Positions 47,146-62,390 of a stretch of 64,000 bases of DNA are shown here, one piece after another. Each line of letters opens with the position of its first letter. Within the stretch, counting starts at the first letter, position 1. The translations under genes were made by a program, and so were the position numbers. The DNA is taken from contig NZ_KB895376.1 of the NCBI RefSeq assembly GCF_000374825.1, positions 1 to 64,000 of the forward strand, given 5' to 3'. The notes below the pieces were generated by a model. That model saw nothing but the letters and a program-made list of their open reading frames with translations, ran no database searches and was not told where the DNA came from. The stretch is from Paenibacillus sanguinis 2301083 = DSM 16941. GTDB taxonomy: Bacteria; Bacillota; Bacilli; Paenibacillales; Paenibacillaceae.

Positions 47146-48570
47146 TTAATCCGTGTGATCAGGGCATATCTTCCCGGGCCTTAACGGCAGGTAGAAAGCA
47201 AATGAGCTGCCTTCTCCCTCCGTGCTGTCCATATCGATGAAGCCGCCGAGCAGTCTGGCCAAATTGCTGCTGATGGACAATCCCAGGCCTGTTCCGCCGA
47301 ATTTACGGCTAATCGAGCCATCGGCCTGCTGAAACGCCTCGAACACTGCCTCCTGCATGTCCTTCGACACGCCGATTCCGGTATCGGTGACAACGAAGGC
47401 AAGCCATTCGCCGGGATGCGGAATCTCCTCGCTCTCAGCACGGCGGATATCAAGCTGTACGTGGCCCTCTTGAGTAAATTTGAAGGCATTAGACAATAGG
47501 TTGCGCAAGATTTGATTAATGCGCTGTGCGTCACTTATGATCGTATTGGGCAGCCCCTGCTCCAGATTAATCACAAATTGGATATTCTTCTGCTGGGCAA
47601 TGTGTTCAAAATGCATCTGCATCCAGTCCGGCAACTCGGCAAGCACAACCTCCTCCTCGACAACCTCCAGTCGACCGGCTTCTACCTTGGATAAATCGAG
47701 CACATCATTTACAATTTGCAGCAAATCATGACCGGACTTATGGATGAGCCGTCCGTATTCCGGAATATCCTCGTCTGCCTCGTCGCTCTCTGAGATAATT
47801 TCCGCCAGGTTAATGATGCTGTTCAGCGGAGTTCTTAGCTCATGGGACATATTTGCCAAAAATTCAGATTTGTATCTGGAAGCCTGAGCCAATTGCTTAG
47901 CCCGATCCTCCAAAACAATTTTAGCCTTATGCAGCTCATCTGTTTGCTTGCGAAGTAATTCATTTGCGTATTTAAGCTCCAGATTCTGCCGATGCCCTAA
48001 CTGAAAATCGCGTAGAATCAAGGCAAACAGTATGCTAAGAAAAATGCCCAGAGGTAAAGTTACCGGCATAATCTCCAGCATATACTTGCTGAACGGAATG
48101 ACGCCAAACCAGGCAAGATTCACATGGTTAACAATGTTAATAATTAAGATTGTAACCAGACCCTTGACAAAGAACCGGTAATTGGTTCGCTTCATCCAGA
48201 TACTTAGCCCTGCCCCGACAAAACCCAAAATGGTGAGATTAACCAGACCAACGACTGCAGCCTCACTCACGCCAAAGCTCAAACGGGCCATCCCAATGCC
48301 CACGCCAATCAGAATGACAGTGGCTGGTTGGGCATACACGAAGGTGGCGATGATTAACGGCACATACCGCAAATCAAATAGCACATCATCCTTCAGGCGG
48401 AAGCCAAACTTCATACAAACCCATCCCGATACGATAATCAACAGCACCGATAAAATATAAATCATGCGTGGCGAGGTTCTACGAAGCCCATACTTATATA
48501 GGATATTAGCCAGATATGTGACGGTAACCAGCATACCCAAGTTAAGTAAAAATGTATTTCCAAGTCCCAT
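47146..48570 (-). CDS. Orphan membrane histidine kinase with 5TMR-LYT sensor
   Basis: About 474 residues. Residues ~1-200 form five or six membrane helices of the 5TM-5TMR_LYT type (ILSVLLIIVSGWVCMKFGFRLKDDVLFDLRYVPLIIA). A coiled coil (~205-250) leads to the HisKA box FLANMSHELRTPLNSIINLAE, and a HATPase domain (LRNLLSNAFKFTQEG, VVTDTGIGV, GGTGLGLSISSNLARLLGG). No response regulator is adjacent. The ATG at 48570 (RBS GGGGGTGA) is used; the 37 further codons upstream are not hydrophobic and lack an RBS. Confidence 0.9.
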   Translation of the reverse strand: MGLGNTFLLNLGMLVTVTYLANILYKYGLRRTSPRMIYILSVLLIIVSGWVCMKFGFRLKDDVLFDLRYVPLIIATFVYAQPATVILIGVGIGMARLSFGVSEAAVVGLVNLTILGFVGAGLSIWMKRTNYRFFVKGLVTILIINIVNHVNLAWFGVIPFSKYMLEIMPVTLPLGIFLSILFALILRDFQLGHRQNLELKYANELLRKQTDELHKAKIVLEDRAKQLAQASRYKSEFLANMSHELRTPLNSIINLAEIISESDEADEDIPEYGRLIHKSGHDLLQIVNDVLDLSKVEAGRLEVVEEEVVLAELPDWMQMHFEHIAQQKNIQFVINLEQGLPNTIISDAQRINQILRNLLSNAFKFTQEGHVQLDIRRAESEEIPHPGEWLAFVVTDTGIGVSKDMQEAVFEAFQQADGSISRKFGGTGLGLSISSNLARLLGGFIDMDSTEGEGSSFAFYLPLRPGKICPDHTD

Positions 48571-48791
48571 CAAGTCACCCCCAAAATTAATTTCATGGCC
48601 AAGTTGCCATAATCCTGCCGCTGATCCGAAGTTGCTCATTCCTCGCTTTTGACAGCAATGCTTCCAGTATGCCATATCCAAGCTTTCTAAAAAATAAATA
48701 TTTTAAATATTAAGCAACCGTTTGCACGTTCTATATCCCTTACGGGGCATGGGTTTGCTCGATTCAGGGCGTTGAGCTATGTCACAACTAA

Positions 48792-48807
48792 TGTGATTCA
48801 TTTCACA
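48792..48807. promoter_or_regulatory. Fnr-type box TGTGATTCATTTCACA
   Basis: A perfect TGTGA-N6-TCACA, the Fnr recognition sequence of Bacillus, extended to TAATGTGA-N6-TCACATTA (48789-48810). Its centre (48799.5) lies ~41.5 bp before the start point expected from the extended -10 at 48826-48834, the classical activator position for this family. Confidence 0.75.
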
Positions 48808-48825
48808 TTATCGCTTTTTTTTATA

Positions 48826-48834
48826 TGCTAAAAT
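48826..48834 (+). promoter_or_regulatory. Extended -10 promoter of the pplA-ndh2 unit
   Basis: TGC-TAAAAT (48826-48834) without a good -35 hexamer, as expected for an activator-dependent promoter. Confidence 0.6.
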
Positions 48835-48931
48835 TCCCTCGACAAACGATTTTCAAACTGCTCAATTCCTTTGCAGCAGGCCACTTTTAGCCCTTGCCCG
48901 TTTTGACTTTATGTAGTTAAATAAGGAAGTT

Positions 48932-48955
48932 ATTAAAATGTCTTCACATTTTAAT
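48932..48955. promoter_or_regulatory. Perfect 10-bp-arm palindrome in the pplA leader
   Basis: ATTAAAATGT-cttc-ACATTTTAAT, between the promoter and the RBS. It could be a second operator or an mRNA-stabilising hairpin; it matches no consensus I know. Confidence 0.55.
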
Positions 48956-48986
48956 ATATATAATTCATTCACTGGAGGTCTCTATC

Positions 48987-49886
48987 ATGAAAAAAGCTTC
49001 AATCATTCTTAGCAGCGCTCTGCTGTTAGGTTTGTTGGCAGGCTGTGGTTCGAGCAATGGCGCTGATACAACAGAGCCGGCGAGCAATACGCCTGCTGCT
49101 AATGAAACCCCTGCAAGCAATAGCACGAACAGTGCTGAAGCCGGCAGCTACCAGGACGGCGTCTACTATGCCCAAGGTGAAGCCGATGCAAAAACAGGCT
49201 GGCAATACTATGTTACTCTCACAGTTTCTGGAGGAAAGATTACAGAAGCAAATTGGAATGCTATTAATGCAACAGTTCCCGTGGATAAAGTAACCTACTC
49301 CAAGGAAGGCAAATACGGCATGAAAGCTGGCGGTGCTGCCTCCGAATGGCATGAACAAGCCGAGAAAGCGGAACAATATCTGATAGAAAAGCAAGACCCT
49401 AAAGATATTACCCTAAATGAAGAAGGTAAAACAGATGCTATCGCTGGCGTATCTGTTCATGTGAATGAATTCTTCACACTGGCTGACCAAGCCTTGGCTG
49501 CTGGCCCGGTTGATTCAGTAAAGTACAAAGATGGTACTTATCATGAAGAAGGCGCTGAGTTTGATCCGCAATCCGGCTGGAAAGAAACTGTGGATGTTGT
49601 TGTAGCTGCCGGCAAAATTGTAAAAGTTAACTTCAGTGGTGTGAATGAAAAAGGTGAAGACAAAAAGCAAGCCTCGATCGACGGCAACTATGGCATGAAA
49701 GCTGGCGGTGCTGCCTCCGAGTGGCATGAAGAAGCTGCCCTTGCTGAAGCCTACCTGGTGGAAAATCAAGATCCTGCGGCAGTAGCTTTCAATGAAGAAG
49801 GCAAAACCGATGCAATCGCTGGAGCAACTATCAGCCTACAATCTTATTTCGAGCTTGTTGGCAAAGCGCTTGAACAAGCCAAATAA
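48987..49886 (+). CDS. pplA: PplA-like lipoprotein with two FMN-binding domains
   Basis: Lipoprotein signal with lipobox LLAGC20, then a Thr/Ser/Ala/Asn-rich spacer (21-52) and two homologous FMN-binding domains: ~55-172 and ~178-298. Both contain YGMKAGGAASEWHE and EEGKTDAIAG, so they arose by duplication. Flavinylation sites for ApbE-type transferases (D-x-x-(S/A)-G-A-T/S) are DAIAGVS (Ser156) and DAIAGAT (Thr281). Expected on the outside of the membrane as an electron carrier in extracellular electron transfer, as shown for Listeria PplA. RBS TGGAGGT, 7 nt. ndh2 follows by 43 bp. Confidence 0.88.
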   Translation: MKKASIILSSALLLGLLAGCGSSNGADTTEPASNTPAANETPASNSTNSAEAGSYQDGVYYAQGEADAKTGWQYYVTLTVSGGKITEANWNAINATVPVDKVTYSKEGKYGMKAGGAASEWHEQAEKAEQYLIEKQDPKDITLNEEGKTDAIAGVSVHVNEFFTLADQALAAGPVDSVKYKDGTYHEEGAEFDPQSGWKETVDVVVAAGKIVKVNFSGVNEKGEDKKQASIDGNYGMKAGGAASEWHEEAALAEAYLVENQDPAAVAFNEEGKTDAIAGATISLQSYFELVGKALEQAK

Positions 49887-49929
49887 TATATATTCCCTAA
49901 TGAACTTAAATTAAGAAGAGGTGAGTCTC

Positions 49930-51810
49930 TTGAAGAAGATCGTAGTTTTGGGCGGTGGTTACGGTGGTGTTGTCACTTCCAAACACCTGGCCAAACTGTT
50001 AAAAAAAGATAAAGATGTGGAGATCCAGTTGATCGACCGCAACCCGTACCATACGCTTTTGACCGAGTTGCACGAAGTCGCAGCGAACCGGGCTCCTGAA
50101 GATTCTGTCAAAATCGAGCTTAAGAAAATTTTTGCTGGTCAAAAAGTTGATGTTGTTCTGGACTCCATCGACAATATCGACTTCAATGCCAAGGAGCTTC
50201 GTTCAGAGCAGCATACCTACAAGTATGATTACCTGGTTATCGGCTCGGGCTGTAAGCCTACCTTCTTTGGTATTCCAGGTGCTGAAGAGCATGCGTTGAC
50301 CCTGTGGTCCTATGAAGACGCCGTTCGCTTGAAAGAGCAAGTTCGCCGTATGTTTAGCGAAGCGGCTAAAGTAAATAATCCGGCTAAACGCCGTAAAATG
50401 CTTTCCTTTGTTGTCGTTGGCGCCGGCTTTACCGGTGTGGAATTGGTTGGGGAACTGGCTGAATTCCGGGACGAGCTGTGCAAAGAATTCTTCATCGATC
50501 CAAGCGAGGTTCGTCTGGTCGTTGCCGATATGGCTCCGAAGATCCTGCCGATCCTGCCTGATAAGTTGATTGAAAAAGCAGCGAAACGTCTGCGCAAAAT
50601 GAACGTAGAAATTGTAACGAGTGCGAAAATCACAGGCGTTACACCATCCAGCGTCCAATTGGGCGAAGGGCAAGAGCTTGAAGCGAATACCATCGTTTGG
50701 ACAGCCGGTGTTGAAGGCTCTGAACTGGTTGGCAAGCTTGATGTTAAGCAAGAAGGCCGTAAACGGATCGTCACCAATGACAAGCTGCAAAGCGTTGATC
50801 ATGAAGACGTATATATCGTTGGCGACAACATCTTCTTTATTCCTGAAGGCGAAACACGTCCGGTGCCGCAAATGGTGGAAAATGCCGAGCAAGCCGGACC
50901 GCTTATCGCTCATAATATTCATGCTGATATTCACGGCAAGCCGAAGAAATCCTACAAGCCTGGGTTCCATGGCACAATGGTATGTATCGGTAGCCGTTAC
51001 GGCGTAGCCAACGTGGGCTTGCCAAACAAAATGTTCATGTTGACCGGCTTCATGGCCATGCTCAGCAAGCACATGATTAACATGTATTATCTCTTTACCG
51101 TAGCTGGCTTTGCTAAAGTCTGGACTTACATGATGCATGAGTTCTTCCATGTAAATAACCGCAGAAGCTTCCTTGGTGGTCATTTCTCCAAGCGTTCACC
51201 AAACTTCTGGCTGTTGCCGCTTCGTCTCTTTGTTGGTTACAAATGGCTTGAGGAAGGGATCGACAAATTGCCTAAAATCCTTAAAGACCCTTCCAACATT
51301 TTCTTGATTCCGGCTGCTCCTCATGCAGCAGATGCAGTCTCCGCTGCCAGTGAAGCTGCTGGTGCCGTTACTGAAACGGTTGATGCTCAAGCTGCTGCTT
51401 CTGCAGTGGAAAGCGCATCGACAGCAGTCACTGCGTTGCCGGTGCCTGGATTTATCAAGTCGATGGTTAATGGCGTTATGGATATTTTCTTCTACACACC
51501 AGATGGTGGTTATACCGCCTTGGCTACTGTCTTCCAATTCTTTATGGTGTTCGCGGAAATTGCGATTGGCCTGATGTTGATCGCTGGTCTCTTTACAGCC
51601 GTAGCTTCTGCAGCTACAGTCGCACTGGGCGTCATGATCTGGTCTTCCAGCATGGCATCGACCGAGATGCTATGGTATATGACTGCAGGCATCGCCTTGA
51701 TCGGCGGTTCGGGCAGCATGTTTGGTCTGGATTACTATGTTCTTCCTTGGCTCAAGAAACAATGGAAACGAATCCCGTTTGTACGAAGATGGTATTTATA
51801 CACGGAGTAG
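49930..51810 (+). CDS. ndh2: Type II NADH dehydrogenase with C-terminal membrane domain (Ndh2-like)
   Basis: About 626 residues. FAD-binding KKIVVLGGGYGGVVTSKHLA, NADH-binding SFVVVGAGFTGVELVGELAEF (~162-182), FAD contact VYIVGDNIFF (~298), QNAEQ-like quinone region MVENAEQAGPLIA. Beyond ~430 normal NDH-2 residues, a membrane helix (LLPLRLFVGYKWLEEGIDKL), an Ala/Val/Ser-rich linker (~465-508) and three helices (~535-605) follow, as in the EET-specific Ndh2 of Listeria. Probably passes electrons from NADH to a demethylmenaquinone. Start TTG at 49930 (RBS AGGTGA); a GTG at 49921 overlaps the RBS. Confidence 0.9.
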   Translation: MKKIVVLGGGYGGVVTSKHLAKLLKKDKDVEIQLIDRNPYHTLLTELHEVAANRAPEDSVKIELKKIFAGQKVDVVLDSIDNIDFNAKELRSEQHTYKYDYLVIGSGCKPTFFGIPGAEEHALTLWSYEDAVRLKEQVRRMFSEAAKVNNPAKRRKMLSFVVVGAGFTGVELVGELAEFRDELCKEFFIDPSEVRLVVADMAPKILPILPDKLIEKAAKRLRKMNVEIVTSAKITGVTPSSVQLGEGQELEANTIVWTAGVEGSELVGKLDVKQEGRKRIVTNDKLQSVDHEDVYIVGDNIFFIPEGETRPVPQMVENAEQAGPLIAHNIHADIHGKPKKSYKPGFHGTMVCIGSRYGVANVGLPNKMFMLTGFMAMLSKHMINMYYLFTVAGFAKVWTYMMHEFFHVNNRRSFLGGHFSKRSPNFWLLPLRLFVGYKWLEEGIDKLPKILKDPSNIFLIPAAPHAADAVSAASEAAGAVTETVDAQAAASAVESASTAVTALPVPGFIKSMVNGVMDIFFYTPDGGYTALATVFQFFMVFAEIAIGLMLIAGLFTAVASAATVALGVMIWSSSMASTEMLWYMTAGIALIGGSGSMFGLDYYVLPWLKKQWKRIPFVRRWYLYTE

Positions 51811-51845
51811 ACAGTCACCTTTGCTCTTGAGAGCTTGAAACCCGG

Positions 51846-51886
51846 AGTAATGTGCGCCAGGGGCGCACATTACTTTCCTTTTTCTA
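51846..51886 (+). terminator. Terminator after ndh2
   Basis: 13-bp stem AGTAATGTGCGCC / GGCGCACATTACT with a 3-nt loop and TTTCCTTTTTC tail. Confidence 0.9.
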
Positions 51887-51948
51887 TTCCTGCCGAAATC
51901 GGTGCTGGAGCCCCTGCAAGCCTACCTGCTTTTAAGGAGTGTGTCCTT

Positions 51949-52401
51949 ATGAATCATCATCTCATCCAAGATGCTTATCGCTTATTGCAGGGCGAATGTT
52001 CGCCCGAGGCCGGCATTATTGTAGATTTACCTGCCCTGGAGGCAGCACCTATGGCGATACTTCTGGAGCAATACGATATGAATGCGGAACGACAATGCCG
52101 CTTGCTTACCATTTACATTGCAATCAAGCTCGCTTTGCAGCGCCATAGGGATTGTGAGCATCTTGCCGCTGGCGAGGAGCTAACCCGCAGGGTGTTGGAC
52201 GGCGACTACCTATACAGCTTTTACGTAGAGCTTTGCCTCAAATGGGAGGAATACGATTTGCTCTCTCATCTGGCTCCCGTTATCAAACAAATTCAAATCA
52301 AACGTGCAGAAGGCCGCCCCGAGGACGAGCGGCTGCTTAAGGGCTGGGAGTTATTCCTGCGACTTGAGCATAACCGCAGTACCGCCAGTCAGGCCATTTA
52401 G
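51949..52401 (+). CDS. Small protein resembling HepS-type subunit of a polyprenyl synthase
   Basis: 150 residues, all-helical, cytosolic. LLTIYIAIKLALQRHRDCEHL and the block TRRVLDGDYLYSFYVELCLKWEEYDLLSHLA look like the (Q/R)-L-x-VL-x-GDY-L/Y-S-x-x-Y motif of heptaprenyl diphosphate synthase component I (HepS), but this protein is shorter than the usual ~250. It lies 92 bp before the polyprenyl synthase gene, as hepS precedes hepT. ATG with RBS TAAGGAG, 9 nt; the frame further upstream includes the terminator and is not coding. Assignment is tentative. Confidence 0.65.
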   Translation: MNHHLIQDAYRLLQGECSPEAGIIVDLPALEAAPMAILLEQYDMNAERQCRLLTIYIAIKLALQRHRDCEHLAAGEELTRRVLDGDYLYSFYVELCLKWEEYDLLSHLAPVIKQIQIKRAEGRPEDERLLKGWELFLRLEHNRSTASQAI

Positions 52402-52492
52402 CCAATGTCTTGCCTGTGAAGCGAGCCAGGCCTTCGCAGCTTGGCTCGCTTTTGTTGTGAGAGGCCGCTTATATTTTCAAGGAGGAGACGCC

Positions 52493-53476
52493 ATGAGGAG
52501 ACTTGAAGAAGCGCTGAATATCCCATTGAACACCGTAGACCGCGAGATTGAGAATATGGTCAAATTTGACCGGGATGTCCCCCGCTCTTCTCAGCTTGCC
52601 AAGAGCATCATGGAATTAATTCGGTCTGGCGGCAAGCGAGTTCGCCCCTTGATGGTTATCGTGGGTAGCCGGTTTGGGCCTGTCTCCGACCCGCAGAAGG
52701 TATGGCGGCTGGCCGCTGCGGCTGAATTTATTCATGCTGCTTCGTTAATTCATGATGACATCATTGATGACTCGCCGCTACGGCGCGGCCAGAAGGCTAT
52801 GCATGTCAAGCTTGGTGTTAGCGAAGCCTTGCATATCGGCAACTATATGTCGGCCCGAGTGATCGAGCTGATCTCCGCCTATTCTGCGGAGCGGGAACGC
52901 TTTGCTTACCAGTTCTCTTCTCTGGCAACAACAAGGCTTTGCCTGGGGGAATACCAGCAGTTATCCCACCTGTACGACTACGACGTGACCATAGAGCAAT
53001 ATTTGGAGAAATCCAAAAATAAAACAGCGCAGCTCATGGCAACCTGCCTGCAAATCGGAGCTCAGGCTACCGGAGCCGATACTGTCACTTCTGACCTGCT
53101 CTATTCCTTTGGGGAGAAGCTGGGCATGGCCTTCCAGATCCGCGATGACCTGCTCGACTTTACGCAATCGGTACAGAAGCTGGGCAAGCCTGCCGGTGGC
53201 GATCTGCGCGGAGGCCAGGTTACCCTTCCCGTCCTGTTTGCCTTGCGCGATGAAAGCCTGGCAAGTCAGATCAGAGCGATATCAGCGGATAGTTCCGCCG
53301 CCCAAGTAGATGAAGTCGTTGCAGCCATCCGGGCTAGCGATGCACTTCAGCAAACGGAAGCGCTAAGTCAGCAATATCTGCACGAAGCGCAAGAAATTAT
53401 TCATCAGCTCAATGATTATCCCTCCCACCAGGACCTGCAAGCTCTGCTGGATTACCTGGGTGGACGGGAGAAATAA
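52493..53476 (+). CDS. Polyprenyl diphosphate synthase (HepT/DmkB-like)
   Basis: 327 residues. Trans-prenyl transferase making the isoprenoid tail of menaquinone. FARM motif DDIID (88-92) in LIHDDIIDDSPLRRGQ and SARM DDLLD (218-222) in MAFQIRDDLLDFTQ; GGKRVRPLM at 47-55 binds isopentenyl diphosphate. The residues before the FARM are small (AASL), which allows a long chain. RBS AAGGAGG before ATG 52493. The stop codon TAA is the first part of the 115-bp dispersed repeat. Beside ndh2 and across from a UbiA gene, it corresponds to DmkB of the Listeria EET locus, or it is the sole menaquinone-tail enzyme. Confidence 0.88.
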   Translation: MRRLEEALNIPLNTVDREIENMVKFDRDVPRSSQLAKSIMELIRSGGKRVRPLMVIVGSRFGPVSDPQKVWRLAAAAEFIHAASLIHDDIIDDSPLRRGQKAMHVKLGVSEALHIGNYMSARVIELISAYSAERERFAYQFSSLATTRLCLGEYQQLSHLYDYDVTIEQYLEKSKNKTAQLMATCLQIGAQATGADTVTSDLLYSFGEKLGMAFQIRDDLLDFTQSVQKLGKPAGGDLRGGQVTLPVLFALRDESLASQIRAISADSSAAQVDEVVAAIRASDALQQTEALSQQYLHEAQEIIHQLNDYPSHQDLQALLDYLGGREK

Positions 53477-53587
53477 GAAAAAGCATCTATTGATGTACGA
53501 TCTTTGAAGCCAGACCACGTTAAGCGGTAGTTTTTCTTGCGATTATAGAATTGTTCAGCTCCACTGAAAACTTATAAATTCTATAAT
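53473..53587. repeat. 115-bp dispersed repeat, copy 2
   Basis: Same orientation and length as 3790-3904. It begins at the stop codon of the polyprenyl synthase gene and ends before a terminator. Confidence 0.8.
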
Positions 53588-53601
53588 CTTAAGATAAAAA
53601 C

Positions 53602-53642
53602 AAAGGCGATGCCGGGATATGAACTCCCTTGGCATCGCCTTT
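53602..53642. terminator. Bidirectional terminator between convergent prenyl genes
   Basis: AAAGGCGATGCC / GGCATCGCCTTT 12-bp stem; on the minus strand followed by TTTGTTTTTA. Confidence 0.9.
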
Positions 53643-53660
53643 AACTATTGGATACAGCAA

Positions 53661-54533
53661 TCACTTCAACATAAAATCTCCGAGAGTAAACAGCAATATC
53701 ACCATGCTGATTACCTGATTCAAATTGTAAGAGGCCACGTTCATCCGCTTACGGTTTGCGGGCTTGATGATCTTGTGCTCGGTCAATAGAAGGAGAATAG
53801 ATAGAGCAATTCCTGCCATGTACATCCACCCGAGCTGTCGAATCGGAATCAGAGCAATCAAGAGCAGCACCATAATCAAATGCAGCCCGGCGGCAATACG
53901 CAAGCCATTCTTAAGACCAAAGGCGCTGGGGATCGACCAGAGGCCGTGACTACGGTCGAAATCGATGTCCTGCGTTCCGTAAATAATATCAAACCCGGCA
54001 ATCCACAGCATGACAATGGTGCCCAGAATAAACGGTGTGAAGGCGAATTGCCCCGTCACCGCGAACCAAGCCCCGATGGGAGCGGAAGCGATGGTAAAGC
54101 CCAAATACAGATGGCTTAAGTACGTAAACCGCTTGGTATACGAGTAGGAGGAGATCAGGAAGATCGCCACCGGCGATAAAATCAGGCAAAGCCAGTTGAG
54201 CATACCCGCAGCAAAAATAAAGATGGCATAATTGATCACAACGAACACAAGAACCTCACGGGATTCCAACAGCTTTCGCGGTAAATGGCGGTGGGCTGTC
54301 CGCGGATTCTGCTCATCAAAGACACGGTCGACTACACGGTTGAATGCGTTGGCTCCATTCCGTGCACCAATCAGAGCGATCAGTCCCCAGAACATAACTC
54401 TCCAGGAGGGTATCCCTTCCGCAGCCCATACCATGGAAATGATGGCAAATGGCAAGGAAAACAACGTATGTGAAAACATGACCAGCTCGCTGTACAGCCT
54501 TATTTTAGTACCGATTTTTCTGGCAACTTCCAT
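53661..54533 (-). CDS. UbiA-family prenyltransferase (MqnP/DmkA-like)
   Basis: About 290 residues, eight or nine membrane helices. First Asp-rich motif NGANAFNRVVDRVFDEQNPRT, followed by AHRHLP; second GFDIIYGTQDIDFDRSHGLWSIP. It attaches a polyprenyl chain to an aromatic acid for (demethyl)menaquinone. The sequence looks more like the UbiA/MqnP group than MenA. It may be the futalosine-route enzyme of the cell or the EET-specific DmkA counterpart; its place at the end of the run with eetAB-ecf favours the latter. RBS AAAGGAG, 13 nt before ATG. Confidence 0.85.
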   Translation of the reverse strand: MEVARKIGTKIRLYSELVMFSHTLFSLPFAIISMVWAAEGIPSWRVMFWGLIALIGARNGANAFNRVVDRVFDEQNPRTAHRHLPRKLLESREVLVFVVINYAIFIFAAGMLNWLCLILSPVAIFLISSYSYTKRFTYLSHLYLGFTIASAPIGAWFAVTGQFAFTPFILGTIVMLWIAGFDIIYGTQDIDFDRSHGLWSIPSAFGLKNGLRIAAGLHLIMVLLLIALIPIRQLGWMYMAGIALSILLLLTEHKIIKPANRKRMNVASYNLNQVISMVILLFTLGDFMLK

Positions 54534-54569
54534 GATTAAGTACACACTCCTTTAATACATAGGCCTGAG

Positions 54570-55853
54570 TCAGGCCAATTCTCCCAGCACAGCTTCCAGA
54601 GCTTCCAGCATCCCGTGCACATCCTCCTCCGTAATGACCAGTGGAGGCTGGAAGGCAAGCACATTACGATCCACACCGTTCTTCCCGATAATAAACCCGT
54701 GTTGCAGCATGCCTTCAAGCACATCATCCGTAAGTCTTGCCGCTGCATCAGGGTCATTGGCACGTAGTTCTGCGCCGAGCATCAGACCTTCTCCCCGCAC
54801 CTCGGATACAGACGCCGGGAACCGTGCGGCAAGCTGCTCCAGGCCCGCTCGCAGCAGGCTTCCTAACCGCTCGGCCCGCTCGGGCAAATGATGTGCCTCA
54901 ATATAGTCCAGCACCGCCAGCGCGGTAATACAGGATACAGGATTCCCTCCGAATGTGGACGCCGACGGGCGGTTAAAGCTGGCGGCAAGCTCATCGGTCG
55001 TGGCAAACCCCGCAATCGGAATTCCGCTGCCAAGCGCCTTTGCCATAGTTAAAATATCCGGCGTTACCTGGTAACGATCCATAGCAAACATCCGCCCTGT
55101 CCGACCGAAGCCGGTCTGTATCTCATCAGCAATCAACAACACCCCATATTGCTTTAACAGCCGCTTCACTTCAGCGAAATACCAATCCGGCGGCGTCACG
55201 ATCCCGGCATTGCCCTGAATCGGCTCCACGATCATGGCAGCGATGGTGTCCCCCTTCGCCGCCAGAACGCTCTTCAACGCTGCGATAGAGCGGTGCCCCG
55301 CTTCATCGGCGCTCATACCCGGCTCATAAGGCCGCGGGATGAAGGTCACATCGCTGTCCTGCGCAAGCTCCGGGTCTGTACGCCACATCTTCAGGCCGGT
55401 GACGCTCATCGTCAGGTAAGTCCGGCCATGCAGCCCCTGCTCCAGCGCCAGAAAGCCCCTGCGGCCCGTATGAAGACGGGCCAGCAGCAACGCCCCCTCA
55501 TTCGCTTCCGAGCCGCTGTTGACAAAGAAGGTGCGGCTGAGACCGCCTGGCAGCACCTTGGCCAGCCGCTCCGCCAGGTCCACGTTGGGCTGTGTCAAAT
55601 AGATCGTACACGTATGCTGCAACGTTCGTAGCTGCTCCGCCGTGCGCTCCGCAATCTCCGGGTTACAGTGCCCGCTGGCAACCACGGATACACCGGCGAA
55701 GAAATCGGTGTACCGCTTGCCATCGTGACCATACAAGTATTGCATGGACCCCTTTACCAGTTGCGGCGGGTTCCGGTAAAAATGACTGGTGCATGGATAG
55801 AAAAATTGTTTACGCTTCTCCAAAATACCGTCCGGTCCGATATAGCTCTGCAT
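54570..55853 (-). CDS. Class III PLP aminotransferase (AGXT2/4-aminobutyrate-like)
   Basis: 427 residues. PLP site: Asp243 in LLIADEIQTGFGRTG and Lys272 in ILTMAKALGSGIPI; VNSGSEANEGALLLAR (~111-126) binds phosphate, HGRTYLTMSVTG follows. Family members use omega-amino donors (4-aminobutyrate, ornithine, beta-alanine) or alanine-glyoxylate; this one cannot be pinned down. It lies 36 bp upstream of the UbiA gene and 55 bp after the U32 gene on the same strand. Confidence 0.9.
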   Translation of the reverse strand: MQSYIGPDGILEKRKQFFYPCTSHFYRNPPQLVKGSMQYLYGHDGKRYTDFFAGVSVVASGHCNPEIAERTAEQLRTLQHTCTIYLTQPNVDLAERLAKVLPGGLSRTFFVNSGSEANEGALLLARLHTGRRGFLALEQGLHGRTYLTMSVTGLKMWRTDPELAQDSDVTFIPRPYEPGMSADEAGHRSIAALKSVLAAKGDTIAAMIVEPIQGNAGIVTPPDWYFAEVKRLLKQYGVLLIADEIQTGFGRTGRMFAMDRYQVTPDILTMAKALGSGIPIAGFATTDELAASFNRPSASTFGGNPVSCITALAVLDYIEAHHLPERAERLGSLLRAGLEQLAARFPASVSEVRGEGLMLGAELRANDPDAAARLTDDVLEGMLQHGFIIGKNGVDRNVLAFQPPLVITEEDVHGMLEALEAVLGELA

Positions 55854-55908
55854 GTTCTACGCTTCCCTTCTCCATTGTTTACTTGCCATACTCCACTCTT
55901 TGGGCTTC

Positions 55909-57936
55909 TTAATGAAGCGCCGGGGCGCTCTCCACTTCCTCCGTCGCGGCCTCTGCCCCTGGTCCGGCCATGCCGCTGGCACGCCCACCATCAAATTGTA
56001 GCGCGCCTAACGTATAGCCGGCATAAACTGGTGCAAGCTCCGCAAAAAACTTGGCAGATGCCGCAGGATCAGCCAATGCGGCCTTATAGGCACGCACGAT
56101 CGCGCCAAGCTGCTCCGGGCGATAGGTCGCTCCCTCGATACGGAACACGGACAAGCCAGCGTCCAGAAGCTCCTTAACGGCTGGCATCAGGCAAAGCTCC
56201 TTGGCCATCATGAGATGATTCCGGCCGTGAACGTCACGGTACACCGGATTCTCGCCTTTATCGGTCATAAGCACCAGAACATGGTTATCTACATAATGGT
56301 TATCTTCTTCCCCAATAGACTGGAAGGCCTCGGCATTTTCATATAAATCATGCTCCATATACATCAGAGCTGGTGAACCATGGACAATAACCTCCAAGGG
56401 GTCCTGCGCATGTGCCAACAAGTCCGTCAGATCCTTCAGCGGCAGCTCCATCGATGCGGTCAAACGGGTAACTCCAAGTTCACGGTAAAATGCCGCAGAG
56501 AGCTGATTGTATACGTTCAGGTTGTAGTCTCCAATCAGTGGATACCCTTTGCCGGCAAATTTACGAATGGCCCCCAAATTGGTAACCATCAAGCCATCAA
56601 TGGGCAACCTTTCTCCGGACAATAAGCCATCATAAATTTCAAAATGCAGCTCAGTCATCATACGCGGAAGGCACAATACCAGCCTGGCAGCACCCTTTAT
56701 AGAAGCCAGAGACTTGATGTCCTCCTTGGTAAATGGACGGTCCGGTTCATATACATCACCAGAGAGATAGATATAGTCTGCGCCCGCCTCCAGAGCGGCT
56801 TTCGCCTGCGAGAAATTATTCACATGCACAGACACTCCTGGTTCCATAACGCTCTTGCCAAGGCCGTCTGGCTTCTTCTCTTTTCCCACGGAAGCCAACG
56901 CTTCACGGATTGCGCCCACCCGCTTCTCGCCAAGCTCCCGCTCAGCGGTCGGTGTGCTGAACACTTTGCCAGTGCTGTAAAATTTCCCGGTTCCCTCATA
57001 ACGACGGTTAATATTCGATAATCCCGGACGACCAAAGGCGTAGCCCGTGGAGAAATCACGCTTGCGATTTTCATACAACAGCTTGGTATCCCGGCTGCGC
57101 TCAAAACCAACAGGGTCATCGATATAACGATCGATGGCATCTCCATAAGCCTGAACGAGCATAAGAACAAACTCTGCGTCACGCATCCGTCCTTCAATCT
57201 TGAAGGAGGTAATCCCTCCATGAATCAATTCGGGGATATGCTCATACATAAACATGTCTTTTACAGCCAGCGGATATTCAGCAGGATATACGTAGCCATC
57301 CTTCTTGACCCGGTAATCCCAGCGGCATGGCTTGAGACATTTGCCCCGATTGCTGCTCATGCCAAATACCATGGAACTAAAATAGCAGTTAGCCCCATGC
57401 ACCGAACACATATCACCATGAACGAAATACTCAAGCTCCATACCGGTTGCTTGTTGAAGATACCTTGTAGTCATCAGATCCATTTCCCGTGAAGTGACCA
57501 CCCGTGTAACACCCAATTCTTGCAGCGCACGAACCATTTCTACATTATGCACGTTCATCATGACCGAGGAATGCACCTTAATGCCAAGTCCCATTTCCCG
57601 AATCAAGGACAAGACGGCAAAATCCTGCACGATAATGGCATCCGGGCCTGCCGAATCCAGGAACTGCAGGTAGGCTCTTGCCTCATCCAGCTCGCCTTCG
57701 CCCAGCAGGTTGTTGACGGTGACATATACCTTTTTCCCCAAGCCATGAGCGATCCGGACCGCATCCGTAATCTCCTCCAGGGTAAAATTATAACCCTTGC
57801 GCATCAACCGCATATTCAGACTGGGTCCACCAAGATAGACGGCGTCACAGTTCGCTTCAATTACTTTTTTGAAAATTTCAAATGTCCCCACAGGTGCAAG
57901 CAGTTCTACTTCTTTACCGTTAAAATAACGTGCCAC
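55909..57936 (-). CDS. Double-domain peptidase U32 family protein (DUF3656-type)
   Basis: About 675 residues. N-terminal U32 TIM-barrel domain (VELLAPVGTFEIFKKVIEANCDAVYLGG, KVYVTVNNLL, VHSSVMMNVHN) with a [4Fe-4S] cysteine set in MCSVHGANC...GKCLKPC (C177, C184, C200, C204) and IEGRMRDAEFV; a second U32-like half from ~370 (FSQAKAALEAGADYIYLSGDVYEPD, GDYNLNVYNQLSAAF). Relatives hydroxylate tRNA (TrhP, YrrN/YrrO) or ubiquinone without O2 (UbiU/UbiV). Start GTG at 57936, RBS GAGGAGG 8 nt before. A MITE-like element separates it from ecfT. Confidence 0.9.
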   Translation of the reverse strand: MARYFNGKEVELLAPVGTFEIFKKVIEANCDAVYLGGPSLNMRLMRKGYNFTLEEITDAVRIAHGLGKKVYVTVNNLLGEGELDEARAYLQFLDSAGPDAIIVQDFAVLSLIREMGLGIKVHSSVMMNVHNVEMVRALQELGVTRVVTSREMDLMTTRYLQQATGMELEYFVHGDMCSVHGANCYFSSMVFGMSSNRGKCLKPCRWDYRVKKDGYVYPAEYPLAVKDMFMYEHIPELIHGGITSFKIEGRMRDAEFVLMLVQAYGDAIDRYIDDPVGFERSRDTKLLYENRKRDFSTGYAFGRPGLSNINRRYEGTGKFYSTGKVFSTPTAERELGEKRVGAIREALASVGKEKKPDGLGKSVMEPGVSVHVNNFSQAKAALEAGADYIYLSGDVYEPDRPFTKEDIKSLASIKGAARLVLCLPRMMTELHFEIYDGLLSGERLPIDGLMVTNLGAIRKFAGKGYPLIGDYNLNVYNQLSAAFYRELGVTRLTASMELPLKDLTDLLAHAQDPLEVIVHGSPALMYMEHDLYENAEAFQSIGEEDNHYVDNHVLVLMTDKGENPVYRDVHGRNHLMMAKELCLMPAVKELLDAGLSVFRIEGATYRPEQLGAIVRAYKAALADPAASAKFFAELAPVYAGYTLGALQFDGGRASGMAGPGAEAATEEVESAPALH

Positions 57937-57975
57937 AGTTGTCTCCTCCTCACAGAAATCCCTCTTAAAATGCGG

Positions 57976-58094
57976 GTTCAAAAAGTCGGGTTTGTAGGAC
58001 CGAGAAGGTTGAATGAAGGCCCGGCTGAATTCAAGATTCGATGTCGAATTTACTCCTCGAACAACTCCGCCCTGGGAAGACGACTTTTTTGAAC
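57976..58094. mobile_element. MITE-like element, 119 bp, between ecfT and the U32 gene
   Basis: Ends GTTCAAAAAGTCG and CGACTTTTTTGAAC; interior matches the element at 33695-33861 except for about 45 bp missing from the middle. The right border continues TACCTCTA. Confidence 0.75.
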
Positions 58095-58131
58095 TACCTC
58101 TAAAAAGAGTTTCTTCTCAGTCTACTTCTTG

Positions 58132-58932
58132 CTATTTCCAATGATATACCACACTCGCTACGGCCAATAAAATATAGGAGACCACGAACCACGTATCCCG
58201 TCGCCTCCATGCCAGATAATGATACTCTGAGCGCGCTGCGCCAACGATGTAACCACGCGATTCCATCGATAATACCAACTCCTCCGCGCGGCGGAACGCA
58301 CTGACCGTGACCGGTACCAGCAGCGATACCAGCATCCGTCCCTTCTCCTTCCAGGGAAGCTCCTTTAAGTCGGCTCCCCGGGCGGCTTGAGCCTTCACAA
58401 TCTTCTGCGTCTCATCGAGAATGGTTGGAATGAAGCGCAAAGCGATGCTCATCATCAGCGTGAGACGGTCCGCGGATATACCAATCAGGCGCAGCGGCTT
58501 AAGTACGCCGTTCATCCCCTGATTCAACAGCCCGGGCGTAGTGGTGAACGTTAGTATTGCGGTAAATGAGACCAGCATCCCCATCCGCAAGGCGGCAATT
58601 CCTCCGCTGCTCACACCAGCCTGATACAGCGTCCACGAGCCGATTTGCCAGAGGGGAGGACCCTCCTTAACAGCCAGGCATTGCACGATAAATATGAACA
58701 CCATCAAGGTCCATAACGGCTTTACCGCTTTCAAATAGTATTTGAGGGGAATCCGGGTGGATAACATATAGGCTAGCGAAAATACCACGATCCCAGCCAA
58801 AGCAATCCAAGAGTCTACGGCTACAATCGCGACAAGATACAGGACCATGCCGGTCAGCTTGGCCCGCGGATCAACGCCATGGACCCATGAGCCCGTATCA
58901 ATGCTGCGGCCAAACAACAGCTTGTTGCGCAT
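58132..58932 (-). CDS. ecfT: ECF transporter membrane subunit EcfT
   Basis: About 266 residues, five or six membrane helices. The two coupling motifs that touch the ATPases are ARG (184-186, KAQAARGADLKE) and SRG (225-227, SMESRGYIVG). The start at 58932 (MRNKLLFGRS) has RBS GGAGAGGGGG and overlaps the ecfA2 stop. With ecfA1 and ecfA2 it forms an energizing module. In the Listeria EET locus an EcfT-like protein (FmnA) takes part in flavin export. Confidence 0.93.
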   Translation of the reverse strand: MRNKLLFGRSIDTGSWVHGVDPRAKLTGMVLYLVAIVAVDSWIALAGIVVFSLAYMLSTRIPLKYYLKAVKPLWTLMVFIFIVQCLAVKEGPPLWQIGSWTLYQAGVSSGGIAALRMGMLVSFTAILTFTTTPGLLNQGMNGVLKPLRLIGISADRLTLMMSIALRFIPTILDETQKIVKAQAARGADLKELPWKEKGRMLVSLLVPVTVSAFRRAEELVLSMESRGYIVGAARSEYHYLAWRRRDTWFVVSYILLAVASVVYHWK

Positions 58933-58933
58933 A

Positions 58934-59869
58934 TTAGCCGTCCCCCTCTCCGGAAGGCTCAAGCTGCGGCGAGGCAGCTTCCTTAGAGAGCGGCGAGGCA
59001 GCGGCCTTCATAGCTTGGGCAGGCAAGGCAGCCAGACGCTCCGCCAGCGACTCTGCGGTCAAGCAGGGTTCCTCCTCTTCCAGCCCGTAATGCGTGGCCA
59101 CGGCATTCCAATAGCGAATACAGTCAGGGATGGCCAGACCGGAGGCTTCCAATCGTTCTGCTTCCTGCACAAGTTCTTTAACACTTCCCTGGAACAATTT
59201 ATGTCCATCCTCCATCACAATCCACTGATCGGCATAGGGCAGGATTTCTTCCATACGGTGTGTGACTACCAGCACCGTCTTTCCCTCCTCACGATGCAAG
59301 CGCGACAGCATACTGGCTAGCTCTGCCCGGCTCTGCGGGTCCAGCGTTGCCGCCGGCTCATCCAGAGCAATGATATCCGGCTCCATTGCGAGCACTGAAG
59401 CAATCGCCACCTTGCGCATCTGTCCCCCGCTTAAATGAAATGGATTTCGCGGAAGAAATGAGTCATCAAGGCCAACCAGAGATAGCGCTCTACGGGTACG
59501 CCCTCTCGCTTCATCCAGAGTACAGCCGAAATTCAGCGGACCAAAGCAAATATCCTTCTCCACCGTATCCTCGAACAGCTGCTGTTCGGGGAACTGAAAT
59601 ACCAGACCAACCCGGCGCCGCAGCTCTCGCAGCGGTGGTGTTTTATCTCCTGCCTCCATAGTGACATCAAGCACCCGAAGCTTGCCCTCTGTCGGCTTTA
59701 AAATTCCGTTAAAGTGCTGCATCAGCGTTGACTTACCCGATCCAGACGCGCCGGCAATTCCGGCGAACACCCCGGTCTCCAGATGCAAGCTGATTTGCTC
59801 CAACGCACTATTTCTCCACAGGCTGTGCGCATCATAAGCAAAGCTGACCTGTTCAAAATCAATGGACAT
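58934..59869 (-). CDS. ecfA2: ECF transporter ATPase EcfA2
   Basis: 311 residues. Walker A GASGSGKST (40-48), Q loop VFQFPEQQLFEDTVEKDICFGPLN, signature LSGGQMRK (146-153), Walker B IIALDEPAATLDP (167-178), H loop VVTHRMEEI. The C-terminal ~60 residues are an acidic/Ala-rich extension. 15 bp after ecfA1. Confidence 0.93.
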   Translation of the reverse strand: MSIDFEQVSFAYDAHSLWRNSALEQISLHLETGVFAGIAGASGSGKSTLMQHFNGILKPTEGKLRVLDVTMEAGDKTPPLRELRRRVGLVFQFPEQQLFEDTVEKDICFGPLNFGCTLDEARGRTRRALSLVGLDDSFLPRNPFHLSGGQMRKVAIASVLAMEPDIIALDEPAATLDPQSRAELASMLSRLHREEGKTVLVVTHRMEEILPYADQWIVMEDGHKLFQGSVKELVQEAERLEASGLAIPDCIRYWNAVATHYGLEEEEPCLTAESLAERLAALPAQAMKAAASPLSKEAASPQLEPSGEGDG

Positions 59870-59884
59870 TTTCTGAGCCCTCCC

Positions 59885-60691
59885 TTATCGCCGCTCTAAC
59901 TCAAGCTCTTCCGGGAGCTCCAGTCCACGTTTTCTTATAGCATGCCGCAGTCTGACACGATAAGGTGTAACCAAACGGCAAGAATCCAGCAAAGCTCCAT
60001 CCTCAAACAGCTCTGCAGGCGACAGGTCAGCGACTACACGGCCTTCTCCGAGCACGATGGCCCGGTCTGAAGCAAGAATCTCATCTGCATCATGTGTGAT
60101 AGAGACCATCGTATACTGTCCACTGCCCTGCATATCTTGCAGAATAGCGAGCAGTTCTCCGCGAGCCTTCTCGTCCAGCATAGAAGAGGCCTCATCAAAT
60201 ATAATGATGCCTGGCTCCATCGCCAATATCGAAGCGACGGCCACCCGCTGCTTTTGCCCGCCGGAAAGATCCGCAGGATGCTTGGACAACAGATGGCCGA
60301 TTTGCATTTTTTTCGCATATTCCCGTACACGCTCCACCATCTGCTCACGCGGCAAGCAGCGGCCTTCCAGTCCAAAGGCTATATCCTCCTCAACCGTGGC
60401 TCCGATAAATTGATTGTCCGGATTTTGGAATACCATGCCAATTCGCGGACGCAACATTGCAACCGTGCCTCGGTCCAGCTTCGTGCCCTCCACCCGAATT
60501 TCTCCGTCATTCACAGCAAGCAAGCCGCCAAGCAACTTGGCCAAGGTCGATTTCCCGCAGCCGTTAGGACCCACTAGCGACACCCAGCTTCCCGAAGGGA
60601 TTTCGAGCGTAATTTCGTGAAGCACAGGATGGGCCGGATGATAGGCAAAAGACACTCGCTGCAATTCGTACGCCAGTCTGTTTTCACTCAT
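59885..60691 (-). CDS. ecfA1: ECF transporter ATPase EcfA1
   Basis: 268 residues. Walker A GPNGCGKST (41-49), VFQNPDNQFIGATVEEDIAFGLEG (Q loop and the ECF-type NQF element), LSGGQKQR (142-149), Walker B IIIFDEASSMLDE with Ser in place of the usual Pro/Ala, H loop SITHDADEI. Pairs with EcfA2 as in EcfA1A2T modules. A diverged repeat lies in the 140-bp gap before it. Confidence 0.94.
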   Translation of the reverse strand: MSENRLAYELQRVSFAYHPAHPVLHEITLEIPSGSWVSLVGPNGCGKSTLAKLLGGLLAVNDGEIRVEGTKLDRGTVAMLRPRIGMVFQNPDNQFIGATVEEDIAFGLEGRCLPREQMVERVREYAKKMQIGHLLSKHPADLSGGQKQRVAVASILAMEPGIIIFDEASSMLDEKARGELLAILQDMQGSGQYTMVSITHDADEILASDRAIVLGEGRVVADLSPAELFEDGALLDSCRLVTPYRVRLRHAIRKRGLELPEELELERR

Positions 60692-60731
60692 GATTTTCTC
60701 TCCCCTCGGTATGCTATTTGCAGTTCATAAT

Positions 60732-60835
60732 TACGCAAAGAGACAGACGAGAAAATAAGCTTGCCGTCGCTGCCCCTCACGAGTTTCTTGTATTGATCAA
60801 ATTTTATGGCATCGTGCTTCGTTCAGCTTGCCTAT
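60732..60835. repeat. Dispersed repeat, related to 29508-29650
   Basis: TTACGCAAAGAGACAGACGA and following blocks align with the element in the ctaG-ctaM gap. Its right end runs into the stop region of eetB. Confidence 0.5.
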
Positions 60836-61386
60836 TCTTTTTCAGCAAGAAAGCTTTCAAACAGCTCCAGCTTGGATAGAGCCGGGATCAAGTATCTGAC
60901 CGCAATCCCGACCGCGATGCCTGTCAACACGCCCATAATCAGAAGCATTGGCAGGTAGTAAAAAATGTTGGAGGTGCGGAAGTAAAAAGCCGCAGTGGTG
61001 AGCTGCCCCACATTGTGCGCAATTCCGCCGACGATGCTGATTCCGATGACGCTCAGCTTTTTCCGGCCTATAGCAAGCAGGAACCACATGGCCGCAAAGC
61101 TGAATAACGCACCCATAATACTAAATAAAAAACTGGAGAAAGTTCCGAATATAAATGCCGTTAACAATGTCTTCAACAACACCATCATCAGCGAATCTTT
61201 CGCTCGCAGGAAGTACAGGCAGGTTAGGACCATAATATTAGCCAAGCCAAGCTTGGCTCCTGGCACGCCCATATTAATAGGAATCGCAGCCTCAATCAGG
61301 CTAAGTACGACAGAAACGGCGGCGAAAATCGCAATAATGACCGTTCTCTTCAACATCAGATTGGATTGCTCATTTAACGATCGCAT
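60832..61386 (-). CDS. eetB: EetB-like Gx transporter family protein
   Basis: 184 residues, five or six membrane helices, with the PF07456 block VPGAKLGLANIMVLTCLYFLRAKDSLMMVLLKTLLTAFIFG and GGIAHNVGQL. This family is distantly related to S components of ECF transporters. It overlaps eetA by 17 bp (RBS GGAGGAG inside eetA) and is 140 bp upstream of ecfA1, so it may be the substrate subunit of that transporter. In Listeria, eetB lies in the EET locus and is needed for, or linked to, the electron transfer. Confidence 0.88.
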   Translation of the reverse strand: MRSLNEQSNLMLKRTVIIAIFAAVSVVLSLIEAAIPINMGVPGAKLGLANIMVLTCLYFLRAKDSLMMVLLKTLLTAFIFGTFSSFLFSIMGALFSFAAMWFLLAIGRKKLSVIGISIVGGIAHNVGQLTTAAFYFRTSNIFYYLPMLLIMGVLTGIAVGIAVRYLIPALSKLELFESFLAEKE

Positions 61387-61762
61387 CTACATCGTCTCCT
61401 CCTCCGGTAGCCACTACTTCAACCATCAATTTGTGAGGAAGGCATACGATGGTCCCCCCGTTCCGATCAATAAATCCAAAGGTTAAGCACACCTTATCCG
61501 GACAATCGGCATCAATCATTTCAATCCCGTAGTCGTGCACCTTGAGCTGGTTGTAGCCAAACTCCGTTTCAATATCAATCGTCTGTTCTTCTCCGGTTAA
61601 AGCCACGGTCTTGAACAGCTTCCCGTCAACCGTAATTCTGGCGACTCGTTCCTCATTGTTGTGATTGTTTTCACTTGTGCTATTACCGAGCCATCTTGGC
61701 ACCAAAAAAACCAAGGCGACCGCCACAATTAATCCGATTAGCAGGATATCTCCGCGTTTCAT
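61370..61762 (-). CDS. eetA: EetA-like NusG domain II protein
   Basis: 130 residues. One N-terminal membrane helix (ILLIGLIVAVALVFLVP), then an outside NusG-II (PF07009) beta domain: ITVDGKLFKTVALTGEEQTIDIETEFG, DADCPDKVC, IVCLPHKLMVEVV. The conserved cysteines CPDKVC and VCLP are present. Pairs with EetB in the Listeria EET locus. First gene of the minus-strand run reaching to the UbiA gene. RBS GGGAG 6 nt before ATG. Confidence 0.9.
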   Translation of the reverse strand: MKRGDILLIGLIVAVALVFLVPRWLGNSTSENNHNNEERVARITVDGKLFKTVALTGEEQTIDIETEFGYNQLKVHDYGIEMIDADCPDKVCLTFGFIDRNGGTIVCLPHKLMVEVVATGGGDDVDAIVK

Positions 61763-62119: not shown

Positions 62120-62390
62120 TTTCGGTATGAAAATTCCTATTTGAATGACCCAATAAAAGTAAGAATTTTATGGTTTTCTGATTCAAACTGGCGCGGTCAT
62201 CGGAGCCGCAAGGACAAATGAGAGGTAGGGCTTTTGTTGTTTTAGAAATAAGCTATTCGTTAGTTGTAGTCTAAGCAGGAACACCGGGGTGTCTTTCCAC
62301 GTGTACAGGAAGACCTACGTAACAATACAAAGCAGTAAAATGAAGAAGGAAATCGCTTAGACCTAACTCCAAGTGATTTCCTTCTTTTTT
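62120..62390 (+). ncRNA. Candidate structured non-coding RNA with intrinsic terminator
   Basis: A 640-bp gap without a gene holds sequence with several local pairings: TTTGAAT (62132) with ATTCAAA (62182), GCGG/CCGC around TCATCGGAG, ACACC-GG-GGTGT, CTTTCC/AGGAAG, and GTCTAAGC (62269-62276) complementary to GCTTAGAC (62355-62362) in the loop of the final terminator. The end is a clear rho-independent terminator. No open frame, and I could not match it to a known riboswitch, 6S, SRP, RNase P, T-box or c-di-GMP consensus. The region before it (61763-62119) is AT-rich with only the small elements listed. Confidence 0.45.

Follow-up and report, generated by a model that had tools for sequence, protein, structure and literature searches.

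Flavin-based extracellular electron transfer (EET) has been explained by demethylmenaquinone derived from 1,4-dihydroxy-2-naphthoate (DHNA). Does EET need a separate quinone pool, and which quinone is it? A lineage that is apparently unable to make DHNA and yet keeps an EET locus would be a genetic handle on both questions, and such a locus is found in Paenibacillus sanguinis 2301083 (= DSM 16941), in a stretch of 64,000 nucleotides (contig NZ_KB895376.1, positions 1 to 64,000; hereafter, the window). At positions 48987-61762 it consists of two convergent units, a plus-strand arm pplA-ndh2-hepS-hepT against a minus-strand arm eetA-eetB-ecfA1-ecfA2-ecfT-U32-aminotransferase-ubiA. It is probably the flavin-based EET locus in a Paenibacillaceae version that includes a (demethyl)menaquinone branch of its own, fed by the futalosine pathway. 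This reading is based on the gene families present and on how constantly they stay linked. It is also based on the quinone genes: the genome has MqnA/C/E-type genes and no MenB match, and in three relatives ubiA has a futalosine-type decarboxylase as its neighbour. What is new is that a prenyltransferase of the futalosine side, a U32 protein and an aminotransferase are joined to a flavin exporter.

The original prediction, made from the window alone, had proposed a two-armed convergent gene set for flavin-based EET of the Listeria type. The two arms stand: every gene named was confirmed at its place, and the order recurs in 30 loci of the same genus. The EET reading stands as far as the gene families and an ApbE in the genome are concerned, whereas the expectation of a RibU, the identity of ubiA with dmkA and the closeness of the lipoprotein to PplA had to be corrected.

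Layout of the locus and its recurrence among relatives

The named genes are all open reading frames and match their families in profile searches. The features are as follows.

48792-48807, no strand: TGTGA-N6-TCACA palindrome, 195 bases before pplA; the sole exact site in the window
48987-49886, plus: PplA-like lipoprotein with two FMN_bind domains (NF041941, Pfam and motif reading; lipobox LLAGC)
49921-51810, plus: Ndh2-like type II NADH dehydrogenase (Pyr_redox_2) with a C-terminal extension (Pfam)
51844-51876, plus: terminator-like hairpin after ndh2, with 15 pairs and a T-rich tail (terminator scan)
51949-52401, plus: short HepS-like subunit (weak recognition)
52493-53476, plus: HepT-like polyprenyl diphosphate synthase in the DmkB position (TIGR02748, 267 bits, under the cut-off of 456.55; Pfam polyprenyl synthetase)
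53602-53642, no strand: symmetrical hairpin AAAGGCGATGCC...GGCATCGCCTTT between the convergent arms (read by eye; absent from the list of the terminator scan)
53661-54545, minus: UbiA prenyltransferase on the MqnP (futalosine) side of the family (profiles, tree)
54570-55853, minus: class III aminotransferase with the pyridoxal phosphate (PLP) lysine K272 conserved (profiles, alignment)
55909-57981, minus: U32 protein with an N-terminal CX6CX15CX3C motif (C192, C199, C215, C219) and a second U32 half without the motif (Pfam, alignment)
58132-58962, minus: EcfT (CbiQ; FmnA-like transmembrane subunit, ECF-T, of an energy-coupling factor [ECF] transporter) (profiles)
58934-59869, minus: EcfA2 ATPase (profile search)
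59885-60691, minus: EcfA1 ATPase (profile search)
60832-61386, minus: EetB (Pfam PF07456, 147.2 bits), by homology the predicted substrate subunit of an exporter of flavin adenine dinucleotide (FAD)
61370-61762, minus: EetA (Pfam PF07009, NusG_II domain, 101.7 bits)

Ndh2 with its C-terminal extension, which has weak DoxD-like similarity at residues 533-608, adjoins pplA, as expected by family and position of Listeria-type EET. The HepS-like frame was weakly recognised (PF07307, E = 0.081); its profile comparison with the genome's own HepS gave E = 1.1e-4 and a probability of 56%. Because a terminator-like hairpin lies behind ndh2, hepS-hepT may form a unit of its own or a weaker one; the terminator scan is weak evidence, with 14 terminator-like sites in the region versus 13.5 in shuffles. 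The symmetrical hairpin between the arms is possibly a bidirectional terminator. Upstream of eetA, a match to the Rfam small RNA BsrC lies on the minus strand at 62163-62250 (77 bits versus a gathering score of 38).

The arrangement was followed in a set of 59 genomes, the source genome included (36 contigs, 99.99% complete), of which 36 belong to the genus and 23 do not; genomes, contigs and loci are cited below by G, C and L numbers, the source genome being G000. ndh2 was found in 31 of the 36 same-genus genomes and in three of the 23 others (G039, G040 and G056). Across 30 same-genus loci, each a stretch of at most 20 kb, gene order and strands repeat, which is more than chance. ndh2, hepS and hepT each occur in 30/30 and pplA in 28/30 (undetected in L073 and L075), and ubiA, the aminotransferase gene and the U32 gene are present in 29/30, the exception, L059, being a short contig stretch. 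The counts for ecfT (27/30), eetB (22/30) and eetA (16/30) do not distinguish stretches that end early from genes that are too divergent.

The minus-strand arm was also found in other genera. Searched with the U32 protein (strong matches: E at most 1e-150 and at least 62% identity), 83 of 296 genomes of the order gave strong matches, spread over 8 of 48 genera and with 63 of the matches outside the genus. Twenty of these 63 other-genus loci were examined; the trio of ubiA, aminotransferase and U32 genes is present in all 20, and 18 also have ecf-eetBA. A further sample was the best 80 of 434 U32 matches in named genomes (hereafter, the named loci), which are nearly all from Paenibacillus, together with Fontibacillus, Saccharibacillus, two Brevibacillus, one 'Bacillus sp.' and one Paenibacillaceae. 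Among these best 80 of 434 the closest relative is Paenibacillus senegalimassiliensis (Ndh2 98%, U32 92%); the trio is found in 78/80 (L144 and L177 end at contig ends), ecfT in 76/80, eetA and eetB in 74/80, and pplA or ndh2 in 61/80. The aminotransferase and U32 genes had been noticed as interleaved members from outside the known EET set. Their presence is confirmed, but they are not incidental, since they form a conserved trio with ubiA.

The prenyltransferase and the proposed quinone branch

In the original prediction, ubiA was taken for dmkA. This identity was rejected on family: TIGR01475 is the family of the locus UbiA (282.5 bits, cut-off 180.8), whose nearest models, PRK12886 and those of MqnP, have cut-offs that it does not reach. 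A MenA-type DHNA prenyltransferase, the type to which the Listeria DmkA belongs, is encoded elsewhere, at G000:C1:388013-388951 (L013), unlinked to the locus. The genome has four UbiA-family genes, namely a haem O synthase (CtaB, over the cut-off), a housekeeping MqnP-type enzyme, the locus UbiA and the distant MenA-type gene. In the UbiA tree, locus UbiAs group apart from the housekeeping ones of the genus, to which the locus UbiA is 41-44% identical, and both of its Asp motifs are kept in 78/78 named relatives. In the same tree, the second UbiA of G040 takes a sister place that is unsafe because its branch is long; around this gene and the second UbiA of G058, no neighbours with a part in quinone synthesis or EET were recognised by eye.

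The futalosine gene search comprised MqnC, MqnE and the PF02621 family. MqnC (487.9 bits, cut-off 428.1) and MqnE (447.3 bits, cut-off 434.55) in the genome are both over their NCBIfam cut-offs, and a cluster on C4 encodes a PF02621 protein (MqnA/MqnD family, 226 bits), a UbiX-like flavoprotein, UbiA, MenG (over the cut-off), HepS and HepT. MenB gave no match in the source genome and none over the cut-off in the 36 same-genus genomes, with one weak relative in G001. Since the genome has MqnA/C/E-type genes and no MenB match, it is not expected to synthesise DHNA, from which Listeria derives its demethylmenaquinone.

The window locus itself has no linked futalosine gene. The strongest hint that its UbiA is on the futalosine branch comes from three relatives, in which a TIGR03701 menaquinone (futalosine) decarboxylase of the UbiD family lies between the aminotransferase gene and ubiA: G112 (L133, 660.9 bits), Paenibacillus radicibacter (L134 = L186, 565.6 bits) and Brevibacillus laterosporus (L209, 580.5 bits), against a cut-off of 495.9 bits. 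Moreover, of the 31 ndh2-bearing genomes of the genus, 30 encode locus-type UbiA (74-100% identity), the exception being G027 (85% complete, short contig); none of the five without ndh2 has it. This co-occurrence is partly trivial because ubiA is linked to ndh2. In favour of the futalosine branch, too, G039, which has ndh2 together with MenB, has no UbiA of this family.

In the scheme that we favour, HepS-HepT would supply the prenyl chain of a private quinone branch. The MqnP-type UbiA would attach this chain to 1,4-dihydroxy-6-naphthoate, the acid of the futalosine pathway, and decarboxylation by MqnL would come next. The U32 protein and the aminotransferase would be part of the same branch, probably in tailoring or support steps.

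The U32 motif C192-X6-C199-X15-C215-X3-C219 is invariant in 12 aligned sequences and in all 74 properly extracted frames out of 82, the other eight being frames of 2-43 residues. The cited part of PMC6747719 describes this four-Cys pattern across U32 families and connects it with a [4Fe-4S] cluster through studies of UbiU and UbiV. These two add hydroxyl groups to ubiquinone precursors in a reaction that uses no O2, with prephenate under discussion as the oxygen donor (PMC10470549, cited part). The best local identities of the locus U32 are 35% to Escherichia coli RlhA, 29% to TrhP and 28% to UbiU, in the N-terminal half. It misses the curated UbiU and UbiV models (136 of 440 and 69.7 of 275 bits), and no useful match was obtained against solved structures. 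It is unlikely to be the genome's only tRNA/rRNA hydroxylase, as C12 has two further U32 frames, presumably a TrhP-like pair, and C5 has a double-U32 frame of 903 residues with 34% identity to E. coli RlhA over 528 residues. As for the aminotransferase, the PLP lysine is kept in 79/80 aligned rows, the remaining row being a gap. Many class III families of solved structure match it at similar scores, with the phospholyase 5g4i at the top, so that its function cannot be read from solved relatives. A bolder version of the scheme, in which the locus makes a private, modified naphthoquinone, derived from futalosine, hydroxylated without O2 by the U32 protein and perhaps aminated, as a low-potential EET pool apart from respiratory menaquinone, seems to us quite unlikely.

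Several points weigh against a futalosine-fed branch that serves EET. The locus UbiA is under all three MqnP cut-offs (275.6 of 430, 231.7 of 420 and 221.9 of 375 bits), so its substrate is not fixed by family; the housekeeping UbiA of the genome also misses the MqnP cut-off (341.3 of 430 bits). The TIGR03701 copies of the three relatives were examined at the locus only. The other-genus and named loci were retrieved with the U32 query, so that U32 was bound to be present in them, and genomes that are related do not count as independent. The ndh2-bearing genomes outside the genus (G039, G040 and G056) have no locus-type UbiA, and the trio is absent from L077 and L078, two EET loci from other families (the L076 stretch ends early); EET therefore does not require locus-type UbiA. 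Conversely, the trio occurs without EET neighbours at the locus in L194, L200 (= L135, P. lautus), L208, L212 and L136; such trio-only loci include P. lautus, P. faecalis, P. campinasensis and Paenibacillus sp. 598K, and four named loci have the trio alone. Finally, the MenA-type gene tracks the locus: all 27 carriers have ndh2, so a DHNA-based quinone from outside is possible.

The trio-only loci and the trio-free EET loci favour the idea that ubiA-aminotransferase-U32 is a passenger operon beside the exporter, its UbiA being a redundant housekeeping enzyme of menaquinone synthesis. We regard this as very unlikely. A distinct housekeeping UbiA is present in 36/36 same-genus genomes, the locus type is absent from 5/5 of those without ndh2 (partly trivial, as said), and ecfT accompanies the trio at the frequency given above in several genera.

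The distribution of the MenA-type gene bears on another explanation, according to which the EET quinone is ordinary DHNA-derived demethylmenaquinone, the unlinked MenA-type enzyme is the true DmkA acting on scavenged DHNA, as in lactic acid bacteria, and the locus ubiA is otherwise employed. Being unlinked, this gene says more by its co-occurrence than the linked ubiA does: it is present in 25 of the 31 same-genus genomes with ndh2 (the G031 copy has two stops) and in none of the five without (Fisher p = 0.0012, kinship ignored). Outside the genus, it is found solely in G040, where it lies beside pplA (L078), and in G056. In keeping with this explanation, dmkA is located elsewhere in the genome of Paenibacillus sp. 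Cedars (PMC10373932, cited part), and L. plantarum draws on exogenous DHNA for EET (PMC8837199, cited part). Because the MenA-type gene occurs solely in ndh2 genomes of the relatives set, it appears to be EET-related too. However, the gene is missing from G006, G009, G011, G018, G025 and G027, six genomes of the genus that have ndh2; locus-type UbiA is missing only from the last of these, and no DHNA synthesis is expected. We thus judge a purely DHNA-based quinone to be unlikely, and prefer the futalosine-fed branch.

Predicted flavin export, surface lipoproteins and possible upstream control

According to the cited part of PMC9973259, FAD is bound by EetB in Listeria and exported by a complex of EetB, FmnA (ECF-T) and the ECF ATPases, while RibU imports flavins; deletion of eetA causes no EET defect there. 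In the same source eetB adjoins ECF-T genes in 291 genomes and ECF-A genes in 796, so the linkage of eetB with ECF genes as such is already known. RibU had been listed as missing. It is indeed not in the window, and the genome gave no match to a RibU-type PF12822 substrate-binding subunit (ECF-S) at E 0.001. As a lacking part, however, RibU was rejected: in Listeria, EetB serves an exporter as its FAD-binding ECF-S, so a RibU is not expected.

ApbE is absent from the window, as had been said, and the genome search found one, a lipoprotein with a lipobox-like start at G000:C14:57919-58764 (291 bits), beside a CueP gene and unlinked to the locus. The objection that the genome has no ApbE thus fails. 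ApbE adjoins eetA in 37/80 named loci (best 80 of 434), and in 8/30 same-genus loci as well as in L078; among the eight, L072 has no detected eetA. In our scheme, EetB-EcfT-EcfA1A2 would export FAD, and the unlinked ApbE lipoprotein would use it to flavinylate PplA. Membrane-bound Ndh2 would oxidise NADH and reduce a dedicated naphthoquinone pool, which would pass electrons to covalently bound flavin mononucleotide (FMN) on the surface lipoprotein PplA and from there to outside acceptors or flavinylated reductases. Each of these activities is predicted from sequence, and so are the direction in which electrons flow and the compound that UbiA prenylates.

The lipoprotein had been read as PplA. 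Its two FMN_bind domains and its family agree with this, but it scores 77.1 bits on NF041941, under the cut-off of 325. Pfam scores solely its second FMN_bind domain, and the first was recognised from the repeated motif. Compared with the consensus D-x-x-[ST]-G-A-[ST], the motifs are DAIAGVS in domain 1 and DAIAGAT in domain 2. Among 49 named pplA frames, serine closes the first motif found in 45/49, and valine precedes this last position in 49/49; eight frames gave a single motif. The cited part of PMC12052999, from which the consensus is taken, reports that Ala to Val and Thr to Ser changes lower but do not abolish flavinylation with the ApbEs tested, which are other ApbEs. A second, unlinked PplA-like lipoprotein with two FMN_bind domains (G000:C27; L008 1087-1992) has the motifs DAVAGAT and DVIAGAT and scores 217.5 bits against the same cut-off. 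Its neighbourhood, as we take it, consists of ribosomal protein genes and a CysH-like gene. Given these two scores, the window PplA is a divergent homologue and partner, not the nearest relative of PplA.

Elsewhere in the genome (C1, C5 and C13; L002-L007) six lipoprotein-like proteins combine FMN_bind with FAD_binding_2, are about 580-663 residues long and contain motifs like DxxSGA[ST]; they are candidate flavinylated surface reductases. With the GAT motifs of the second PplA-like lipoprotein, they raise the possibility that the exporter and ApbE mainly serve such reductases, which pass electrons to soluble acceptors and not to minerals. We find this doubtful as a full account, though it is compatible with the proposed EET locus and does not exclude it. 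None of the six proteins is encoded within the window, and in L. plantarum removal of ndh2 or pplA impairs ferrihydrite reduction, pplA being only conditionally required there (PMC8837199, cited part).

Upstream of pplA, the TGTGA-N6-TCACA palindrome, which we take to be a Crp/Fnr-type box or a Rex-like one, recurs in 15/46 named loci, versus 43 sites over 1.639 Mb of all 80 loci; upstream of eetA it was found in 0/74 named loci. Within the genus it precedes pplA in 10/28 loci, and the exact form was not found before pplA in the other 18/28; beyond the genus, L076, L077 and L078, which represent three other families, also have it there. In part of the group, the electron arm is plausibly under the control of a Crp/Fnr-type regulator (or of Rex). 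Divergent from pplA, a membrane histidine kinase gene (47146-48681, minus) stays beside the locus in many, not all, relatives.

Comparison with known systems

Neither a link between futalosine and EET nor the trio was found in the searches made of open-licence papers; one of the papers listed contains both futalosine and EET. The EET locus of Listeria monocytogenes comprises PplA, Ndh2, DmkA, DmkB, FmnA, FmnB, EetA and EetB (gene list in the cited part of PMC10373932). The window resembles it in Ndh2, the lipoprotein with two FMN_bind domains, the polyprenyl synthase, the prenyltransferase, ECF-T, EetB and EetA, with ApbE in the genome. Unlike the Listeria locus, it has two convergent arms, an unlinked ApbE and its own EcfA1A2 within the operon; it adds the U32 protein and the aminotransferase, its prenyltransferase is on the MqnP side and not of the MenA type, and its PplA scores 77 bits versus 325. 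In Paenibacillus sp. Cedars, which reduces iron minerals, seven of the eight EET homologues are in one operon with ecfA1A2T and only dmkA is apart; section 16 of that paper, the part cited, names no ubiA, U32, aminotransferase or futalosine link for Cedars (PMC10373932).

The minus-strand arm is like the EetB-FmnA-EcfAA' FAD exporter (PMC9973259, cited part) in that eetB stands with ecfT and two ecfA genes and adjoins eetA, and unlike it in that all four subunits and the quinone branch are in one operon. It is like the tail of futalosine menaquinone synthesis (UbiA/MqnP, UbiX and MqnL) in having a TIGR01475 UbiA, which the TIGR03701 decarboxylase adjoins in three relatives. Unlike that tail, its UbiA is a second, divergent copy tied to EET, with a U32 protein and an aminotransferase. 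The U32 protein differs from UbiU/UbiV, TrhP and RlhA in its identity of 28-35%, mainly in the N-terminal half, and in a second U32 half without the Cys motif. It shares with these hydroxylases the CX6CX15CX3C motif (PMC6747719, cited part), and with UbiUV a quinone operon setting. The locus thereby associates a conserved, uncharacterised U32 subfamily with quinones, much as UbiU and UbiV are associated with the making of ubiquinone.

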